In this document: positions 3,772-43,837 of the stretch, piece after piece
Layout of the letters: each line of letters starts with the position of its first letter
How positions within the stretch are numbered: position 1 is the stretch's first letter
NCBI RefSeq assembly: GCF_018128065.1
Contig: NZ_CP072360.1
Span: 1,244,501 to 1,308,500, forward strand
DNA from: Prevotella melaninogenica
GTDB lineage: Bacteria > Bacteroidota > Bacteroidia > Bacteroidales > Bacteroidaceae
DNA: 64,000 nucleotides
Direction: 5' to 3'
Made by a program: the position numbers and the translations under genes
Notes under the pieces: model-generated
What the model saw: the letters and a program-made list of their open reading frames with translations, nothing else
Told to the model about the DNA's origin: nothing
Databases searched by the model: none

Positions 3772-3876
3772 CACAAGAAGAGGTGCTTAGTTAGCCTTCA
3801 AAAGGGCGTTAGTTAGACCTCAAAAGAGCATCTTTAGGAAGCCAATTGGGCGTCTTTTCAAAGCTAAAAGGGCATC
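3772..3876. repeat. 22-bp-period palindrome array, family 1 copy A
   Basis: Units start at about 3772, 3794, 3816, 3838 and 3860, exactly 22 bases apart. Positions 7-14 of each unit carry AAAAGGGC or a variant, and most units fold as a small hairpin (for example GCCTT-CAA-AAGGGC). The array lies in the 549-base gap between the convergent ends of the uvrA paralogue and the POT transporter. A related copy is at 15542. I see nothing else in the gap apart from AT-rich sequence. Confidence 0.75.
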
Positions 3877-4078
3877 TATTAAAATTTAGCATTTGAAAAA
3901 TACGGACAAAACATAAGTGGATATATCAACTTTATAAGTTATGACATATCCACTTTCTTATAGCATTGACGCAAATATTTAATATAATCTGCCAAGATTC
4001 ATTTGGTTATTTGACAATGTCCTAAATACTCAAAATCAATTAGCTATAATTCCCTTATAAGAGGTCAATCATTTTACA

Positions 4079-15541: not shown

Positions 15542-15650
15542 TGCAAGAAAAGGTGCTTAGTTAGCCTTTAAAAGGGCGTTAGTAAGCCCTCAAAAGGGCA
15601 TGTTTTGAAAGGCAATTAAGCCTTAATTCAAACGCTATTAAGCATAGATT
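15542..15650. repeat. 22-bp-period palindrome array, family 1 copy B
   Basis: Units start at about 15542, 15564, 15586, 15608 and 15630, exactly 22 apart. The first three are close to copy A at 3772 (shared stretches AGGTGCTTAGTTAGCCTT and AAAAGGGCGTTAGT). Unit cores fold as mini-hairpins (GCCCT-CAA-AAGGGC; AAGGC-AATTAA-GCCTT). Lies between the IS66 copy and the 3' end of yebC. Confidence 0.75.
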
Positions 15651-15747
15651 AAAAAGAAGGATGTGAAAAAATAGGACAAAAGTTTGCCTTCCGCGCATAT
15701 TCTTCGATTAACAGAAAGAGTAGAAAACAACATATCGGAAAACAGAA

Positions 15748-20303: not shown

Positions 20304-20421
20304 AACTTAATCAAAACCTTCCTGTAACTAAAAAGCATTCTTATAGCATAGCAAGTAAGCCTTGCCAGCTATAAACATAATCTGCTTTTAGAAGCAAAAC
20401 GATTACAAATGACAATTTATC

Positions 20422-20512
20422 TTCATGATAAAAAAGAATTATTTTCACGAAAATAAATATTTCCTTTCACGTGAATAAATATTTTTTTTCATGGAAATAA
20501 TTCGCAAGATAG
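20422..20512. repeat. 22-bp-period palindrome array, family 2 copy A
   Basis: Four units, with the C of TTCA(C/T)G at 20424, 20446, 20468 and 20490, exactly 22 apart. Cores are TTCATGA, TTTTCACGAAAA, TTTCACGTGAA and TTTCATGGAAA, joined by AT-rich AATAAATATTT. Lies downstream of the YpfJ-like gene. Related arrays are at 28160 and 40503. Confidence 0.75.
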
Positions 20513-23133: not shown

Positions 23134-23813
23134 ATCGAGTAGGAGGTAAATGTTACTCATAAGAGGCATTTACCTCCTACTTTTACATTTACCGACCTCC
23201 CACACCACCGTACATACCGTTCAGCATACGGTGGTTTCGGGTTTTCTCATCTCACGATGTGTGGCAAGTTGTTTTCAGCTATCCCTTTGAGTACGACCAC
23301 TTCTATTCTATTGTCGGATTCCGTCCTATCGTACGAATAGAGAGTTCCTTTCGGACATCTGGTTACAAACAAAATCGCAGGGTAGCAATCATTTACTATT
23401 GCACTGCCCGATTCAGTCCTTCCCCATAGGCACACGTGCCTTAGGTACTATGGCATCTTCTGACTTATCACGACAAGTTTTGCTCCATGAGTTACGTAAA
23501 AGAAATAAATCGTCATGTCCGTGAGACCTCCTCGGATAAGGGCATTGTCTTTCCATCTTATACCTACTTCATTTTTCGCTTCGCTCAAGGAAACTCCACC
23601 AACCGTTCCGAATAGCTATGGGACTTTGATTTGTTTGGCAATCTCAGCCACGGTTATATGCCTTATATGAAATTTCTGTCCGTTAGGTCAGATGTTTGCC
23701 GCCAGCTTCCTTCAGATTTCACCTCACGATGAGCACCCTCTGGCTATGTAATTCCTGCTATTAGGGCTTACTCGGGACTTACACCCGTTAGACAATGCTC
23801 ATGCCGAGCGTAC
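23134..23813 (-). mobile_element. Group II intron (class C-like) without reverse transcriptase
   Basis: Read on the minus strand, about 680 nt show the order of a group II ribozyme: a 5' end GTACGCTCGGC (form of GUGYG), domain I segments GGGTGTAAGTCCCGAG and ATCTGAAGGAAGCTGGCGGC, the pre-ORF region with AAGTCAGAAGATGCCATAGT, a domain V hairpin (23204-23235, arms ACCACCGTA / TACGGTGGT), GGGAGGTCGG, then a long domain VI stem (GTAGGAGGTAAATG / CATTTACCTCCTAC) ending CTCGAT at 23134. No reverse-transcriptase frame exists; the longest frame inside (62 codons) has no RT motif. It sits 3' of the thrA terminator hairpin, the site choice of group IIC introns. Class and exact ends are inferred from memory of the family. 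Confidence 0.8.
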
Positions 23814-28046: not shown

Positions 28047-28159
28047 GCTTATCTTTTAATAGTAAGAAAGTGATTAGGCTTTACTTATAGTTTACTTGAG
28101 AAGGTATTAGAAGACTTGAAGTATCATCCTCTACTCCTATAGAATATCTTTATCGAATT

Positions 28160-28245
28160 ATTTTCACGAAAAGAAAAGTTTATTTACGTGAGAAAAAAAT
28201 ATTTCTTTACATGAAGAAAAGTGTTTTTCTTCATGTAAAGAAATT
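28160..28245. repeat. 22-bp-period palindrome array, family 2 copy B
   Basis: Four units with steps of about 21, 23 and 23 bases: TTTTCACGAAAA (28162), TTTACGTGA (28183), TTTACATGAA (28206) and TTCATGTAAA (28231). The last two form a longer hairpin. It lies between the convergent dehydrogenase and nadC genes and could act as a terminator for both. Confidence 0.7.
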
Positions 28246-28270
28246 AGATTTATTGACATCTTACTAAGAA

Positions 28271-31872: not shown

Positions 31873-31994
31873 TAAGAAAAGAGTATTTATATTTATACGT
31901 GCATGATAAAAGTGTTTCTAATCATATTGAATATTAGTTCTTTTTTATCTGATTTAATGGTAAGCAAGCCTCTCTCTTTCCATTTCTTACTATT

Positions 31995-32047
31995 GTGCGG
32001 ATGGTAAACACCAATGGTGCGGATGGTAAACACCAATGGTGCGAAAT
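31995..32047. repeat. 22-bp tandem repeat, family 3 copy A
   Basis: Two identical 22-base units (31995-32016, 32017-32038) and nine bases of a third. Each holds GGTAAACACCAAT, and the junction CACCAATGGTG is a palindrome. The same core occurs at 35080. The rest of the gap between nadB and rprY (31807-32237) holds the nadB promoter and the rprY terminator. Confidence 0.8.
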
Positions 32048-35057: not shown

Positions 35058-35115
35058 GTGTTGATGCCCAACACAAGTGGTGATGGTGGTAAACACCAAT
35101 CGTGTTGAGTGCTTA
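35058..35115. repeat. 22-bp-period repeat, family 3 copy B, in a 5' leader
   Basis: Units at 35058, 35080 and 35102. Unit 1 is a hairpin GTGTTGATGCCCAACAC, unit 2 contains GGTGGTAAACACCAAT (shared with 31995), unit 3 begins GTGTTGAGTGC. It ends about 40 bases before the receptor ATG, so it would be in its mRNA leader. Confidence 0.65.
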
Positions 35116-35152: not shown

Positions 35153-37567
35153 ATGACAATTCAAAGATTACAAACAAGACCTTTCGCATCATACATCATC
35201 TTAGTTATAACTCTATTGCTGCTGAACTCATCCTGTCTTATGGCTCAGCAGAACATAATCTTTAATATCCAGCAACAAACAAAGCACCCTATTGATGCTG
35301 CAACAATTATCATTTCTGATCAGAAAACAGGAAAAGTAATTGCCAATGGGCTAACCGAGACGGACGGAAAGTTTAATTACACCCTTATTGATGGTAGTTA
35401 TCAACTATACTGCGGAGCTATCGGATGCCGTGATACTACTATTCTTTTCTCCATTCCAAATAACCATTCCATTTATAACATCTATTTATATCCTGACGGT
35501 ACAGAGCTGAAAGACGTTATTGTCACAGCCCGCAAACAACGCTCACTCATCAAAATGGAAAGTGGAAAGATACGCATTTCTGTTGCAGAATCCTATCTTG
35601 CCAACCTTGGCAACTCTTTAGATGTTCTGCGCCACACCCCAAGTGTAAGGCTTGATAATAAAGGAAATCTATCGCTTTCTGCCCTTGGCAATGCCGCCGT
35701 TTACGTGAACGGAAAACGCATACGACTTCAAGGTGAAACGCTTACAGCCTATCTGCGTACTATTCCATCTTCTAACATTGCAAGCATTACTACTTCAACC
35801 AACCCTGATGCAAGTTATGATTCAGAAGGGGCAAGCGGTATTATTGACATAAAACTAAAAGACAACAACGAACGAGGGCTTTACATTTCGACCTCTCATG
35901 GTACATCTTTTTGGAATCACATACGCCAAAGTTCTGATTTTAGTATGACTTATAACAAACAGACATGGCAGCTGGGCATCAACTATAGTCATAACATTGG
36001 ACACTATGACATGGAGTATGGTACTGATAGAATGCAAGAAGGAGACCGAAACTTTTCAGAGACCGATGATACTGACAAGCGAAACACTTACGCAGGAGGA
36101 CTGGCTTTTGTATTCCAACCTAACAAGAAACACAAACTTATGCTGAACACATCAGTTGATGCCTTAACAGGTCCCGGAGTGACAGCAACAACTACATGGA
36201 TATATAAAGGTAGAGACACGCTTCATGAAATACTTAAAGCAAGGAATGATTATACCAAACAAGAGAACACAAAATATACGACAGGCATAGGCTATCAGTT
36301 TAATATTACAGAACAACAGACCATCACTGCAAATGCAGATTGGATTCACGTTGATGTTGTAAGTAATAACAATCAGCCCAATGCGTTTTACTCTCCAAAT
36401 GGAACATTACTAAGGGAAGACGACTATCCAGCTAAATCCAAAAAGAAAATAAACATCATCTCATCTGCTATCGACTATAATCTAAAGAATAGTCATGACG
36501 GAGAACTCCTAACAGGTATTAAAGCTGCCAAGGTAGAAAGCAAAAATCGCTTTGGCTTCTATGCAAAAGGTGTGCTTGACAACACAAGATCTAACAGGTT
36601 TACCTACCAAGAGTCAAACCTTGAAGGCTATATACAATATGCCCAGAAATGGAAACATGTACAGGCAACTGCAGGTATGCGGATTGAATATATGCAGACT
36701 ATCGGGACTTTAGAATCCTATTTGGACGGAAAACTGATGGAGGAGAATAAGAACAATCACACAAGACTCTTTCCTAATCTTTCTATCAGTTATAATCTTA
36801 ACAACAAAGCAAAGCTCACACTTGCCTATAGTAAACGGCAAGACAAAGCAAGATACGAAGACCTTAACCCCATTGAATATCTGTTAGATGAACTAACCTA
36901 TTGGAAAGGGAATCCATTTATTCAGCCACAAATAAATCATAGGATATCTTTAGATTACACAAAGAATAATCTTAGTGTAACGCTCTCTTATAATCAGCTA
37001 AACAATTATTTTACACAGCTTCCCGATACATACAAGAAAGACTGCATAGTCATGACAACCAAGAATATTGGTAAACAGAAGCAGCTGGCACTTGACCTTA
37101 TCTATAACAAACGTCTCACCTCATGGTGGGATGTCAGTGCAAACATCGGTGCTTACTACTTTATCAACCATCTTGATTATGAATCTTATAGAGAAGACTA
37201 CCGTCGCCCCTCATGTAACCTTTCACTTTCAAACGACATACAACTACCTGCAAAAGTTCGTATGGAACTGTCTGCAAGATACGCAAGTAAACGACAAGGC
37301 AGAAGTTATGAGGTCCTCAAACCAAGTGGAGGTATAGATATTGGATTGAGTAAACGATTACTCCGAGACAGACTCTCTCTATCTTTAATGATTACCGACC
37401 TACTCCACACTGAGCGTTGGGATAGCTATGGACGTAAGGGAGCATTAGATTTAGACATTTGGGGGCACAGTGAAAGCCGCCAAGTTATCTTCCGTGTACA
37501 TTACAACTTCGGAAGTAGTAAGTTTGAAACAGGTAAGAACAAAGTAAAAGAGGCAGAACGTCTGTAG
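35153..37567 (+). CDS. TonB-receptor-like outer-membrane beta-barrel protein
   Basis: An 804-residue outer-membrane protein. Residues 1-32 are a signal peptide (core SYIILVITLLLLNSS, end LMAQQ). A carboxypeptidase-regulatory-like domain follows (about 35-115, FNIQQQTKHPIDAATIIISD), then a plug-like region (DVIVTARKQRSLIKMESGKI, SSNIASITTSTNPDASYDSE) and a long barrel of the OMP_b-brl_3 type ending in a short tail after VIFRVHYNFGS. These proteins resemble TonB-dependent receptors; the ligand is unknown and no SusD partner is next to it. Start: the ATG at 35153 gives the signal peptide. Converges on tilS. Confidence 0.85.
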   Translation: MTIQRLQTRPFASYIILVITLLLLNSSCLMAQQNIIFNIQQQTKHPIDAATIIISDQKTGKVIANGLTETDGKFNYTLIDGSYQLYCGAIGCRDTTILFSIPNNHSIYNIYLYPDGTELKDVIVTARKQRSLIKMESGKIRISVAESYLANLGNSLDVLRHTPSVRLDNKGNLSLSALGNAAVYVNGKRIRLQGETLTAYLRTIPSSNIASITTSTNPDASYDSEGASGIIDIKLKDNNERGLYISTSHGTSFWNHIRQSSDFSMTYNKQTWQLGINYSHNIGHYDMEYGTDRMQEGDRNFSETDDTDKRNTYAGGLAFVFQPNKKHKLMLNTSVDALTGPGVTATTTWIYKGRDTLHEILKARNDYTKQENTKYTTGIGYQFNITEQQTITANADWIHVDVVSNNNQPNAFYSPNGTLLREDDYPAKSKKKINIISSAIDYNLKNSHDGELLTGIKAAKVESKNRFGFYAKGVLDNTRSNRFTYQESNLEGYIQYAQKWKHVQATAGMRIEYMQTIGTLESYLDGKLMEENKNNHTRLFPNLSISYNLNNKAKLTLAYSKRQDKARYEDLNPIEYLLDELTYWKGNPFIQPQINHRISLDYTKNNLSVTLSYNQLNNYFTQLPDTYKKDCIVMTTKNIGKQKQLALDLIYNKRLTSWWDVSANIGAYYFINHLDYESYREDYRRPSCNLSLSNDIQLPAKVRMELSARYASKRQGRSYEVLKPSGGIDIGLSKRLLRDRLSLSLMITDLLHTERWDSYGRKGALDLDIWGHSESRQVIFRVHYNFGSSKFETGKNKVKEAERL

Positions 37568-37598: not shown

Positions 37599-37815
37599 GA
37601 AAGCTTAAGAGCTTTTTGGTGAAAACTTAAGAGCTTTTTGGTGAAAGCTTAAGAGCTTTTTGATGAAAGCTTAGGAGCTTTTTGATGAAAGCTTAAGAGC
37701 TTTTTGATGAAAGCTTAAGAGCTTTTTGGCTAAAAGGTCAACCCTTTCTGCGAAAACAGTCGACTGTTTTTGAAAAATAGTCAACTGTTTTAAAGAAATG
37801 GTCGACTGTTTTGAT
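37599..37815. repeat. Composite 22/21-bp-period palindrome array
   Basis: Six 22-base units from 37599 to 37730 carry the hairpin core AAAGCTTAAGAGCTTT (or one-base variants), a seventh of 22 bases (37731-37752) carries AAAAGGTCAACCCTTT, and three more at 21-base steps (37753 onward) carry AACAGTCGACTGTTTT, AATAGTCAACTGTTTT and AATGGTCGACTGTTTT. The core changes while period and hairpin shape stay. It fills most of the gap between the convergent receptor and tilS genes. Confidence 0.85.
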
Positions 37816-39258: not shown

Positions 39259-40450
39259 AAAGGACTAAACCCTTCAAATATTCACCTTCTGGATGATAAA
39301 TATTAATTGGATGGTCAGCAGGTTGATGAATCTGATGCAGGATGCGTACCTTACGTCCAGCTTGTGCGGCAGCAGTGAAGACAGCCTGTCGGAAGTTATC
39401 CTTTGTGACTACCTGCGAACAACTGAAGGTAAACAAGATTCCTCCCGGCTTAATCTTTTCAAATCCTTTGACGTTCAATCGTGTATAACCACGCAAACCA
39501 TTCTTCAAAGCACTACGATGCTTTGCGAAGGCTGGGGGGTCGAGAATGATAAGATCATACTTACCATCGTTGTCATCAAGATATTTGAAAGCATCCTCAC
39601 AGATTGCCTCATGGCGTGAATCATTAGGGAAGTTGAGTTCTACATTCTTATTAGTCAACTCGATAGCCTTAGCCGAACTATCCACAGAATGCACCACTTC
39701 TGCACCGCCACGCATAGCATAAACAGAGAAGCCACCCGTGTAACAGAACATATTTAGTACACTTCTTCCCTTCGCATAATACTCCAAGAGAGAGCGGTTC
39801 TCACGCTGATCAATGAAGAAACCAGTTTTCTGACCCTTCAACCAGTCAATATGAAACTTTAAGCCGTTCTCTATCGCTATATTATTGTCTGTATCTCCAT
39901 ATATAAAACCATTCTCCTGACCGAGGTCTGCCTTGAAAGGAAGAGTTGTTTCACTCTTATAATAGATACTATCCAACTTATCGCCCATCACCTTAACAAG
40001 GGCTTTCGCTATCTCCTCACGGCATACATGCATACCAACTGAATGAGCTTGCATAACAGCAGTCTTGCCATATATATCAATAATCAATCCAGGAAGATTG
40101 TCGCCCTCACCATGAACAAGACGATAAGTTGTGTTTGGGAACAGTCCTACTCCTGTTGATTCTTCCCGAATAACACCAATAGCCTGACGAACTTGAAAAG
40201 CCGCTCTCAAACGACTTTCCCAAAACTTATCATCTATCTTTACGTCGTGGAACGAGAGAACACGGACTGCAATAGAACCAATTTGGAAGTGCCCGACAGC
40301 AATAAACTTCTTTTCATGCGTCATAACACGCACAATATCCCCTTCCTCAAGTCCTTCTTCTATCTTGTTGATAGCACCTGAGAAAATCCATGGATGGTAA
40401 CGAAGAAGACTTTCTTCTTTGCCCCTTTTCAAATATACTTGCTTATACAT
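39248..40450 (-). CDS. Class I rRNA methyltransferase, RlmI-like
   Basis: A 400-residue SAM-dependent methyltransferase: N-terminal PUA RNA-binding domain (about 5-75, RYHPWIFSGAINKIEEGLEE) and a Rossmann methyltransferase domain with KTGFFIDQRENRSLLEYYA, VLNMFCYTGGFSVYAMRGGA, YDLIILDPPAFAKHRSAL and FTFSCSQVV. This is the RlmI (23S rRNA m5C1962) arrangement; the exact target base is inferred only from the family. It is followed by tilS with an 11-base overlap. Confidence 0.88.
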   Translation of the reverse strand: MYKQVYLKRGKEESLLRYHPWIFSGAINKIEEGLEEGDIVRVMTHEKKFIAVGHFQIGSIAVRVLSFHDVKIDDKFWESRLRAAFQVRQAIGVIREESTGVGLFPNTTYRLVHGEGDNLPGLIIDIYGKTAVMQAHSVGMHVCREEIAKALVKVMGDKLDSIYYKSETTLPFKADLGQENGFIYGDTDNNIAIENGLKFHIDWLKGQKTGFFIDQRENRSLLEYYAKGRSVLNMFCYTGGFSVYAMRGGAEVVHSVDSSAKAIELTNKNVELNFPNDSRHEAICEDAFKYLDDNDGKYDLIILDPPAFAKHRSALKNGLRGYTRLNVKGFEKIKPGGILFTFSCSQVVTKDNFRQAVFTAAAQAGRKVRILHQIHQPADHPINIYHPEGEYLKGLVLYVE

Positions 40451-40502
40451 AAAGTTTCTATTTAGCGTTTATCGTTTTCCTCTACTTGATGATTCCAGAA
40501 TT

Positions 40503-40575
40503 ATTTACATGAAAATAAATATTTATTTACGTGAAAAGAAATCTTTTTCTTCATGAAAAAAAATATTTATCTCTA
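40503..40575. repeat. 22-bp-period palindrome array, family 2 copy C
   Basis: Three units with their core C at 40508, 40530 and 40552, exactly 22 apart: TTTACATGAAAA, TTTACGTGAAAA and CTTCATGAAAA, joined by AATAAATATTT-like spacers. Lies between the RlmI-like gene start and the exonuclease gene end. Confidence 0.75.
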
Positions 40576-40598
40576 CGATAATAATTTACATAGAGACG

Positions 40599-41272
40599 TT
40601 ATTTTGATGTCACTTCTGATGTATTCCTCGCTTCTTCTGGTGTAGGTTTTACCTTGGGAGGGACTACTACGAGTTCGTAATTACCACTATGTTTCAATTC
40701 ATGCAGACGCTCATAGAGTTTAATACATGTCCAAGCATCTGTAGAAGCATATATTTTCTGCTTATCACTTAATATCTCATTCTCCCAGTTCGATAACTGT
40801 TCACGCTTCGTGATACGCTCATGGAAAACATTAGCATAAAGTTTCTGAAGGCTCATATCTTCAATACCCAACGCCTTAACATAGTCTTGAAGGTCGATAA
40901 AAAAACCTGGTTTAAAGTCTACACGCTGATGTAACATCAAGATATCATCACTCAATGAGAGTCCCACCTTTGGCACTGTTGTATCTTCAAGAAAACGTTT
41001 AATACAATCTGGTACACCTATGATATTCAATCGAAAGAGAAAACAGACATCACGATCGCAAGCCTGCAAGAGTGCTACTTTGCGACGTTGCCCTTTTTGA
41101 AGACAGGACGCGTCTCCGTGTCGATGCCGATGATATCCTTAGAAAGCAGATAATTAACCGCTTTCTCAGCTTCAACTTCATTTAAGACAACGACTATCTT
41201 CCCTGGGAAGGTAACCCTTGGCAACTGTGATATTTTACTCTTATCAAATCTATTGTATAATACTGTACTCAT
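40599..41272 (-). CDS. DEDDy 3'-5' exonuclease (RNase D/Werner type), one frame break
   Basis: Two frames join into a 224-residue exonuclease when one C is added to the plus-strand CCC run at 41091-41093, restoring RPVFKKGQRRKVALLQACD. Catalytic motifs: DIIGIDTETRP (Exo I, about residue 50), GLSLSDDILML (Exo II) and YASTDAWTCIKLYE (Exo III, tyrosine form). This is the small exonuclease-domain protein common in Bacteroidota; a substrate among structured RNA or DNA is not settled. The chosen ATG at 41272 (MSTVLYNRF) is the internal one. The break sits between Exo I and Exo II and looks like an assembly error. Confidence 0.8.
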
Positions 41273-41344
41273 TTTAGATTGCATACTAACTTGCAAAATT
41301 AAAAAAAAAGTTTGAAAAACGGCACTTATGTGGCACTTATTTAT

Positions 41345-41352
41345 TACTTTTG
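41345..41352 (+). promoter_or_regulatory. -7 element of ftsK
   Basis: TACTTTTG followed by C, 24 bases upstream of the ATG at 41376. It lies inside the extended reading frame that begins at 41312, which shows that the extension is not translated. Confidence 0.6.
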
Positions 41353-41375
41353 CAAGGATAAAAGAACAACGATAA

Positions 41376-43837
41376 ATGGCAAAAAGAAAACAACACAGAA
41401 AAGCAAGACTTTCACCGAGGCGATCGGACTAAATAACATTATTAACGACAAAACAGGATTTGTTGCTGGACTTATCCTTTTATGCGTTGCTATCTACATC
41501 TGTGTCGCTTTTTTCAGCTATTTCAGTACTGGTGCAGCAGACCAAAGTTTAGTTACTGATCTCCGCCCTGGAGAGGTGGAGAATGCGAATAGAGTTTTCC
41601 AAAACGTCTGCGGTTCACTCGGTGCAATCATTTCCTACGGACTTATCTCACGCTGTTTTGGTATTCCAGCCTTTATCATTCCTGCCTTCATTGCCCTTTG
41701 TGGACTTCGCATGATGGGAGCTTACAAGAAACTGAACTTAACGAAATGGTTCATGGGAATGGCTTTGGTAATGATTTGGTCATCTGTTACTTTTGCAAAA
41801 GCCCTCACGCCATTACTGGGAGATCAAATATATAATCCTGGCGGAGACCATGGAGCTTTCTGTGTACAATATATGGAGAATCTTGTTGGTTCACCGGGAT
41901 TGATAGCTATCTTGGTAATTGTCATGTTAGCTTATCTTACCTATATCACCTCTGAAACAATTACCGTCGTACGCAAGATGATAAATCCTTTTGGTTACAT
42001 CCGTGACAAGGTGAAGTTTACAGTGGTACATGGCAGCAAAAGCGATAGCACAGAAGATCTCTATAACGATGAGGTTGTAATAGAAGATGAACCAGTAGAG
42101 GCAATAGAACACGTTGATCCTACTCTCGCTGAACCTATTGACTTACCAACAGAACCAACAACCACTCCACAAGAGCCAGACACACTCAACTCGTCCTATG
42201 GCAATGAAAAGGGAACAAAGACACCAAACAATATTACCCCAGGCTTTGAGATTGAGGAGAAGAAAGTTGAAGAGAAAGCAAATAGCAAGACACTCGCAAG
42301 TAACAACCTTCCACTGACACCAATCAATCCTCGTGAACCTTTCACAAAGTGGAAGTTCCCTTCACTTGATTTGTTGAGAGAATATGCTTCTGATTCTAAG
42401 ACTAACTATGTAAGCCAAGAAGAGTTAGAAGCTAACAAAGATCGTATTATCAAAGTTCTAAATGACTTTGGCGTACAGATTCGTAGTATTCGTGCAACTG
42501 TCGGTCCGACAATTACTCTTTATGAAATTACCCCTGCACAGGGTATTAGAATCTCTAAGATTAAAAACCTTGAAGACGATATTGCACTGAGTTTGGCTGC
42601 TATCGGTATTCGTATCATAGCTCCTATGCCGGGTAAGGGTACAATTGGTATTGAGGTTCCAAATGCTAAACCCAACATCGTATCAATGTTCTCTATCCTA
42701 AACTCACGTAAGTTCCAGGAGTCAACAATGGAGTTGCCGATTGCATTAGGTAAGACTATTACCAATGAGGTGTACATGGTAGACCTTGCTAAGATTCCTC
42801 ACTTACTTGTTGCAGGTGCTACTGGACAGGGTAAGTCAGTTGGTCTGAATGCTATCATCACCTCCCTACTCTATAAGAAGCACCCAAACGAACTGAAGAT
42901 TGTACTCGTTGACCCTAAGAAAGTGGAGTTCAGCGTCTATTCTCCAATTGCAAAACCATTTATGGCTGCTGTTGAGGAGAATGAGGAAGAGCCAATCATC
43001 ACAGATGTTCAGAAAGTTGTAAAGACGCTAAAAGGTCTATGTGTACTTATGGACGAGCGTTATGACCTACTGAAAGCAGCTCGTGTTAGAAACATAAAGG
43101 AATACAACCAGAAATTCCTTAGACATGAACTGAATCCAGAGGAAGGACATGAGTTTATGCCATATATCGTTGTCATCATTGACGAGTTTGGTGACTTGAT
43201 TCTTACTGCTGGTAAGGAAGTAGAAATGCCTATCACACGTATCGCACAGTTGGCACGTGCCATCGGTATTCACATGATTATTGCAACCCAGCGACCAACA
43301 ACATCTATTATCACAGGTAATATCAAAGCAAACTTCCCAGGACGTATTGCTTTCCGTGTTGGAGCGATGATGGATTCACGTATCATTCTTGATCGACCAG
43401 GCGCACAACAGCTCGTTGGACGAGGTGATATGCTTTATCTCAATGGTGCTGACCCTGTCCGCGTACAATGTGCTTTCGTGGATACACCAGAAGTAGAGAA
43501 CATCACAAAGTTCATTGCTAACCAGTTAGGACCTGTCCGTCCAATGGAAATCCCAGAGCCTTTGTCTGAGGATGAAGCTGCTGGTGGTGGCTCACTGGAC
43601 GCACAAACTCTTGACCCATTGTTTGAGGAGGCAGCACGAGCTATCGTTGTATCCCAGCAGGGTTCAACAAGTATGATACAGCGTCGACTGTCTATTGGTT
43701 ACAACCGGGCTGGTCGCCTAATGGATCAAATGGAAAAAGCTGGTATCGTGGGTGCGGCAAAAGGTTCAAAACCACGTGAAGTATTAATAAGTGATGAGGT
43801 AAGTCTTGACAACCTTCTTACAATCCTGCGTGGCTAA
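41376..43837 (+). CDS. ftsK: DNA translocase FtsK/SpoIIIE, start region with one frame break
   Basis: An ATPase that pumps chromosome DNA through the division septum. Adding one A to the run at 41381-41385 joins ATG 41376 to the main frame as MAKKKTTQKSKTFTEAIG, 820 residues in all. Four transmembrane segments follow (about 25-190), an acidic/proline linker, then the motor: Walker A VAGATGQGKSVGLNAI, Walker B VVIIDEFGDL, ATQRPTTSIITG and LVGRGDMLYL, and a C-terminal winged-helix gamma domain (IVVSQQGSTSMIQRRLSIGY) that reads orientation sequences. Being essential, it cannot really be broken, which supports a sequencing error here. LolA-like gene follows. Confidence 0.93.

Follow-up and report, generated by a model that had tools for sequence, protein, structure and literature searches.

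RESULTS

Arrays with different cores share one pitch

Intergenic DNA of Prevotella melaninogenica carries tandem arrays of short units that fall into many sequence families and nearly always repeat at 22 bp. The pitch is rigid even where the letters have diverged, the larger palindromic families have a two-fold symmetry whose arms do not covary positively on the main axis, the arrays are depleted in divergent gaps, and they are associated with genes for HU-HIG proteins. We give close to, though below, an even chance to the reading that they are docking rows for protein dimers lying side by side, with HU-HIG paralogues, partly autoregulated, as the most likely readers.

All eight array sites reported in the original prediction are present in the window, the whole stretch of 64,000 nucleotides that was analyzed, and the pattern is stronger than was stated there. 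The claim that cores differ between sites stood in that several families occur, but there are not eight cores: we found only F1 (sites 3772 and 15542), F2 (20422, 28160, and 40503), F3 (31995 and 35058), and, at 37599, F4, hybrid, and F5 units together. No strand is assigned to any of these arrays. The mixed array (37599 to 37815; lag-22 score 110) has six F4 units with dyads from 37607.5 to 37717.5, one hybrid unit, AAAAGGTCAACCCTTT, at 37739.5, and three F5 units at 37761.5 to 37803.5. Its dyad centers follow in seven steps of 22 bp and then two of 21 bp, so that, as had been claimed, the 22-bp step is kept across both core changes, from AAAGCTTAAGAGCTTT to AAAAGGTCAACCCTTT to AAACAGTCGACTGTTT.

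The F1 arrays lie at 3778 to 3884, with convergent genes on either side (lag-22 score 27; dyad steps of 22, 22, 24, and 20), and at 15548 to 15654 (score 21; steps of 22 and 22). F2 arrays are found at 20417 to 20500 (TTATTTTCATGAAAATAA type; score 32; steps of 22, 22, and 22 with a doubled match dropped), at 28155 to 28248 between convergent genes for an FAD protein and nadC (dyad steps of 22, 23, and 22), and at 40501 to 40584 upstream of an RlmI-like gene (score 32; steps of 22 and 22). One F3 array occupies 31992 to 32043 in the gap between rprY and nadB (score 28; one dyad step of 22), and two F3-like units lie at 35058 to 35110 in a divergent gap, upstream of the open reading frame (ORF) at 35153 to 37567; the script detected one of the two, and their 22-bp distance was counted by eye. 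The sites at 28160 and 35058 fall below an ungapped lag-22 score of 15, and six of the eight window sites are therefore in the lag-22 list. An Rfam scan at the gathering threshold gave no match at the arrays. Elsewhere in the window it matched domains D1 to D4 of a group II intron (23541 to 23733, minus strand; RF02001, 98.4 bits). The ORF at 35153 to 37567 encodes 804 amino acids, has no NCBIfam match, and carries arrays on both flanks; the corresponding Prevotella jejuni locus lacks the ORF and both arrays.

A genome-wide excess at lag 22 spread over many families

The sample comprised the window and 40 stretches of 20 kb, or 864 kb, about 26% of the 3.34-Mb, two-contig genome. The TilS protein encoded there shares 86% identity with its P. 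jejuni counterpart, and the same-genus genomes compared below are taken to belong to Prevotella. Masking of ORFs of at least 100 amino acids left 385 noncoding segments totaling 126.8 kb, in which repeat segments were counted at a score of 15 or more. There were 58 segments at lag 22, 29 at lag 44, and 0 to 12 at any other lag from 12 to 60, the maximum of 12 being at lag 14 and made up mostly of heptamer repeats. The autocorrelation proposed as a check with the original prediction came out in its favor: in the window and the first 20 stretches, three of which had been placed on matches of the 37599 unit, lag-22 segments numbered 32, whereas five dinucleotide shuffles averaged 0.00. The second 20 stretches, placed regularly, contributed 26 of the 58. 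The same genomes also have intergenic tandem arrays of heptamers (GTTGGGT and AATTCAT), of the octamer ACAAGTTA, and of the 9-mer TAATTAGGC, among others at L015 942 to 995, L020 9555 to 9655, L018 16263 to 16339, and L024 16334 to 16377.

When the unit consensuses of 164 loci were clustered at 69% identity, 23 clusters had period 22 (95 loci; 15 of the clusters are single-locus), with 8 clusters at period 44, 3 at period 14, 3 at period 21, and no more than 2 elsewhere. The peak at 22 thus does not come from one repeat in many copies. All families might still have diverged from a single ancestral array with a 22-bp unit, the period being kept by descent, since clustering at 69% identity may separate related families; by eye, the F1 unit AAAAGGGCATCTTTT resembles the G010-A unit AAAAGGTCATCTTTT of a same-genus genome, and an array of another genome, G017, matches F2. 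We consider such descent highly unlikely, given that the 23 clusters stay separate at 69% unit identity, that different families are swapped at one site between close species (see below), and that it leaves the absence of indels at saturated divergence unexplained. Across the quarter of the genome and the samples of relatives that were covered, an excess at lag 22 was found, and not one ancestral repeat; the original prediction survived on both counts.

Spacing is maintained while letters approach saturation

Spacing was measured with symmetric core motif models scanned without reference to lag, on neighboring pairs 12 to 34 bp apart. Of 271 such pairs in six families, 263 had a spacing of exactly 22 bp (F2, 44 of 48; F3, 59 of 60; F4, 14 of 14; G016-A, 54 of 56; G010-A, 21 of 21; G003-A, 71 of 72). 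An earlier version of the motifs gave 216 of 221 in five families; its G016-A seed had 0 matches and was then changed. Neighbors are hardly more alike than random units in five of the six families. At variable columns, the values for adjacent and random units were 0.395 and 0.318 in F3, the clearest small excess, 0.341 and 0.313 in G016-A, 0.302 and 0.329 in G010-A, 0.394 and 0.358 in G003-A, and, at the single variable column of F2, 0.295 and 0.348. Only F4, found at 37599, shows strong recent duplication (0.583 for adjacent against 0.229 for random units). Letters near saturation combined with an unbroken pitch point to maintenance of the spacing as such. The contention that homology is insufficient to explain a constant period with changing sequence is borne out by the 23 families at period 22 and by the step kept across core changes.

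Units of the larger palindromic families are symmetric without positive covariation of their arms

Complementary pairs accounted for a fraction of 0.53 to 0.73 on the main axis, against 0.09 to 0.28 on half-way axes, in F2, F3, F4, G016-A, G010-A, and G003-A; F1 is not clearly palindromic. A column-palindrome test reached a P value of 0.05 or less in 26 of 62 arrays of this genome but also in 13 of 36 control arrays, and because of this weakness a covariation test was used instead. No positive covariation between arms within units was found on the main axis in any of the six families (z of -1.9 to -3.5, negative values that may partly be a bias, because units were picked by motif score). A pattern test that leaves the tested positions free, applied to 66 F3 units, put pairs 0-12, 4-8, and 5-7 at or below shuffle. 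Two-fold symmetry without covariation of the arms is more in keeping with a symmetric site for a protein than with a hairpin selected in RNA or DNA.

Of the two ideas offered in the original prediction, a binding partner imposing a period of two helical turns is the better. The other, an RNA of regularly spaced hairpins at gene ends, here taken as terminators or stability elements, is in our estimate very improbable. Units are self-complementary by sequence, arrays are depleted in divergent gaps, and some pairs do covary: three in F2 exceed shuffle (4-21, P = 0.0005, with three G..G units contributing; 5-20, P = 0.0185; 9-16, P = 0.047), z reaches +3.4 on one off-dyad F2 axis and +0.9 on the second G003-A dyad, and the small set G003-B (8 units) gives +2.3, +1.5, and +1.5 on three of four axes. 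Against this stand the results on the main axis of the six larger families and the three F3 pairs, as well as the mismatches. Counts of G.T and A.C on the main axis were 35 and 28 in F2, 51 and 82 in F3, 29 and 14 in F4, 25 and 49 in G016-A, 27 and 18 in G010-A, and 56 and 59 in G003-A, and so no consistent bias toward G.T appears among the palindromic families, whose units were taken without orientation by gene. The F3 consensus also has no T-run, and the one fixed length is the total of 22, stems being variable, which is odd for an RNA.

Placement and exchange between species

After lag-22 and lag-44 segments were merged, 62 arrays of this genome were distributed over 23 convergent, 32 tandem, and 6 divergent gaps and 1 edge, compared with 63 convergent, 142 tandem, and 55 divergent among gaps of at least 150 bp. 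Arrays in tandem gaps lie midway, at a median of 189 bp after the stop and 191.5 bp before the start. The proposal that arrays sit most often at gene 3' ends thus holds only weakly: the pattern is a depletion of divergent gaps. Homology between arrays of this genome mostly stops at the array (median extension of 0 bp over 2,704 alignments); extensions of at least 20 bp occurred 298 times on the left and 301 times on the right, several of them through simple repeats and some through F1 or F3 flanks.

Related species show the same pitch at the same sites, in some cases with other letters. The gap of the 28160 site has F2-type arrays in G360 and P. jejuni as well, and the 40503 gap has F2-like sequence in all six species compared. 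The latter gap measures 148, 148, 148, 127, 148, and 149 bp in the window, G360, G144, G158, G322, and P. jejuni; in G158, the shortfall of 21 bp is at the array edge, and the 84 bp of the array align ungapped. G360 is 98% identical to this genome over window positions 39400 to 43800. At 37599, the six F4 units are kept in G360, other units are present in G158, and an F3 array takes their place in G144, while the 31995 gap holds another 22-bp family in P. jejuni. The core family has thus been exchanged at one site between close species and the pitch has not changed. We rejected the notion that arrays are generally more conserved than the rest of their gaps, as this was so in only 38 of 59 rows, with species pairs counted up to twice and F3 mixed.

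These comparisons also bear on dispersed minisatellite-like repeats, BrickBuilt-like or selfish, in which a copying or slippage machine would set the pitch and no binding protein would be needed. Some gaps vary between species by close to whole units: at 31995 by 44 bp (392 bp in the window, 436 bp in G360, G144, and G158), for the array at G144:51370 by 21 and 22 bp relative to G360 and G158, and at 37599 by 155 bp (165 bp in G158 against 320 bp). The remaining array alignments are ungapped or have gaps of 1, 7, and 8 bp in diverged pairs, possibly alignment slips. F4 is a recent local expansion, and depletion of divergent gaps is what purged insertions would leave. We nonetheless judge this explanation unlikely. 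The step is exactly 22 bp although, in five of six families, the similarity of neighbors barely exceeds that of random units, and decayed slippage products should hold indels; at least 23 sequence clusters share one period; and homology usually ends where the array ends.

Arrays lie upstream of about half of the examined HU-HIG genes

HU-HIG proteins (Pfam PF18291) combine an HU domain with a winged helix, an Ig domain, or a glycine-rich motif. Burroughs and coworkers reportedly assigned them in 2017 to the HU/IHF superfamily, with a lineage-specific expansion in Bacteroidetes, and predicted them to bind DNA. The original prediction named no binding partner; HU-HIG proteins, expanded in Bacteroidetes, were taken as a candidate by a guess that was tested afterwards. 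Two proteins scanned singly matched PF18291 with E values of 3.7e-26 and 1.2e-28, and the other HU-HIG identities come from genome searches. The sole solved chain matched by sequence to a HU-HIG protein of this genome is an HU (5lvt, E = 0.0029).

A lag-22 segment scoring at least 15 lies within 400 bp upstream of 6 of the 7 HU-HIG genes of this genome, compared with 35 of 635 ORFs. The six scores are 21, 22, 30, 15, 17, and 18; the seventh gene, at C1:782232, has a best score of 7 and hence no lag-22 array. Three of the genes with upstream arrays form a duplicated cassette. F2 arrays precede two of the genes, in one case within the leader just after TATCTTTG, which we take to be the Bacteroidetes promoter element. 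The leader of the HU-HIG gene at C1:114761 contains a CACCATAGTG-like motif that by eye is also present in the L025 array; BLAST with that array against five genomes did not find this leader. The repeated cassette (L179, L202, and L205) consists of a C-type-lectin-like gene, so assigned by eye and without a Pfam match in one copy, followed by a TTTCTAACSSGTTAGAAATTT array and then the HU-HIG gene. Octamer-type repeats, possibly phase-variable, occur upstream of HU-HIG genes in G001 (L196, 1800 to 1905) and at C1:782232 (L203, 358 to 497).

In other genomes, upstream lag-22 arrays were present at 2 of 2 HU-HIG genes in G017, 1 of 1 in G002, 1 of 4 in G003, 1 of 2 in G010, 1 of 3 in G016, and 0 of 1 each in G001, G004, G006, and G028. 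In G003, one further gene has an array of period 23 and another has an array downstream. Over all genomes, 12 of 23 HU-HIG genes have an upstream lag-22 array and 11 do not, compared with 45 of 809 ORFs of this genome and G003 (P = 2.5e-9), the upstream region being taken from the domain start for HU-HIG genes (400 to 511 bp) and from the ORF start for the background (400 bp). Without L212, the second G017 gene, which was chosen after its array had been seen, the count is 11 of 22 (P = 1.9e-8). Collapsing the paralogous cassettes and dropping G017 gives 8 of 19 (P = 7e-6), and outside this genome, again without L212, 5 of 15 genes have arrays (P = 0.001 to 0.003), at loci that are mostly best matches or chance overlaps. 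In G028, which belongs to another family, the region upstream of the HU-HIG gene scores at lag 44, and by eye GC-rich palindromes GCCCCGGGGC and CCCCATGGGG stand 22 bp apart there (L180, about 1938 to 2021). The 22-bp arrangement upstream of HU-HIG genes may thus reach beyond this genus.

The arrays next to these genes are of families that also occur elsewhere. BLAST with the array that precedes the first G017 HU-HIG gene gave, with both strands counted, at least 65 matches in G017, at least 48 in this genome, the F2 sites of the window among them, 1 in G003, and 0 in G009. The cassette array has 5 matches in this genome, 50 in G360, and 0 in G144, and the array of a G016 HU-HIG gene recurs at one other place in G016 and at three in this genome.

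Arrays of the same construction might instead be read by another regulator family that also controls HU-HIG genes. We think this somewhat unlikely but a serious alternative, because spacing, symmetry, and covariation all fit it. No HU-HIG gene with an F1 or F3 array upstream was found, although these are among the three largest families of this genome, and genomes with more HU-HIG genes do not have correspondingly more arrays: G360, G158, and G322 have 58, 3, and 3 HU-HIG matches and 9, 11, and 8 arrays in 70 to 75 kb. The similar arrays of G360 and G158 likewise led us to reject a strict rule of one HU-HIG protein per array family. HU-HIG proteins as the readers are favored over such a regulator by the strength of the association in this genome and by the finding that, here as in G017, two HU-HIG genes are preceded by F2-like arrays.

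Arrays and HU-HIG genes across genomes

Strong PF18291 matches (E of at most 1e-10 or 1e-11) number 7 in this genome, 23 in G003, 3 in G016, 2 in G010, 1 in G001, and 0 in G009 and G011, both of which still have canonical HU. In other families, PF18291 matches are weak, short, and like canonical HU among the matches listed, with the exception of G028, which has many strong ones. Same-genus samples gave 17 lag-22 segments in 260 kb of G003 (and 5 at lag 23), 10 in 200 kb of G016, and 8 in 140 kb of G010, and a P. jejuni contig gave 4 in 21 kb; the excess is the same as in this genome and the letters are different. G001 has 5 segments in 10.7 kb of noncoding DNA, by eye of one family. The HU-HIG-free members of the genus had 1 segment in 14.0 kb of noncoding DNA (G009; P = 0.012 at the rate of this genome) and 0 in 9.1 kb (G011; P = 0.015), and samples from four genomes of other families (G019, G025, G020, and G024) had 0 in 22.4 kb, with 10.2 expected at that rate. 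This comparison of array and HU-HIG presence or absence is confounded by phylogeny and small samples.

DISCUSSION

The nearest described repeat is BrickBuilt, a MITE minisatellite of Porphyromonas gingivalis with intergenic tandem units of 23 nucleotides, no spacers, and 19 loci; the same paper mentions 22- and 41-nucleotide repeats, and its table places BrickBuilt_14 next to PGN_0872, a PF00216 DNA-binding protein (PMC4596501). Like BrickBuilt, the Prevotella arrays are intergenic and tandem and occur in the same order of bacteria. BrickBuilt, however, is one sequence family with a leader, a tail, and IS5-like terminal inverted repeats (PMC4596501), in contrast to 23 sequence clusters with a pitch of nearly always 22 and usually no common leader or tail in the flanks. 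REP/BIME elements with RAYT are likewise described as dispersed intergenic palindromes in lineage-specific families (PMC3733652). Unlike them, the Prevotella arrays have a strict 22-bp tandem pitch; no GTAG or CGTC end tags were noticed in the consensuses, and paired arm changes of the REP/BIME type were not seen on the main axis in six families, the F2 pairs and G003-B being exceptions. REP elements driven by RAYT were rejected as an explanation, since no intact REP-associated Y1 transposase was found in this genome; its one PF01797 locus is in two pieces, one with a stop.

The proposed docking has a parallel in plasmid iterons, direct repeats of about 22 bp that place protein on one face of the DNA and whose binder gene is autoregulated. 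Iterons form one family per replicon, at an origin, unlike the many chromosomally dispersed families here, whose arrays number 62 in roughly one quarter of the genome. We know of no CRISPR that resembles a 22-bp unit with a degenerate core. We know of no published target sequence for HU-HIG proteins, and these arrays would be one.

In the mechanism that we propose from these patterns, an array would be a row of two-fold symmetric protein sites two helical turns (22 bp) apart, so that adjacent dimers would all lie along the same face of the DNA. The protein scaffold would set the pitch and the recognition surface the letters, so that unrelated cores could share one pitch and mix in one array. 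The readers would most likely be HU-HIG paralogues, which are expanded in this genus, with different paralogues for different core families. Because HU-HIG genes often have an array just upstream, arrays may be docking rails for their products, and as about half of the examined genes have one, some in the leader, these genes are probably self-regulating. Dispersed intergenic copies might help to arrange the DNA around them or stop transcription from passing from one gene into the next. More tentatively, and with some doubt, we suggest a sequence-independent 22-bp operator lattice with fast-diversifying, HU-derived readers, in which every paralogue would be autoregulated through an array of its own and arrays would also stand at gene borders, a chromatin-like code that would be replaced between close species and lost with the protein family.

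To our knowledge, no class of repeats has been described whose defining feature is the pitch instead of the letters. No such class appeared among the matches listed in a search of titles and abstract openings in the open-access literature, with subscription journals mostly outside its scope. Should the arrays be read by HU-HIG proteins, target sequences would be at hand for a protein family that is expanded in a major genus of the human gut and mouth, and the role of its HU paralogues would become directly testable.
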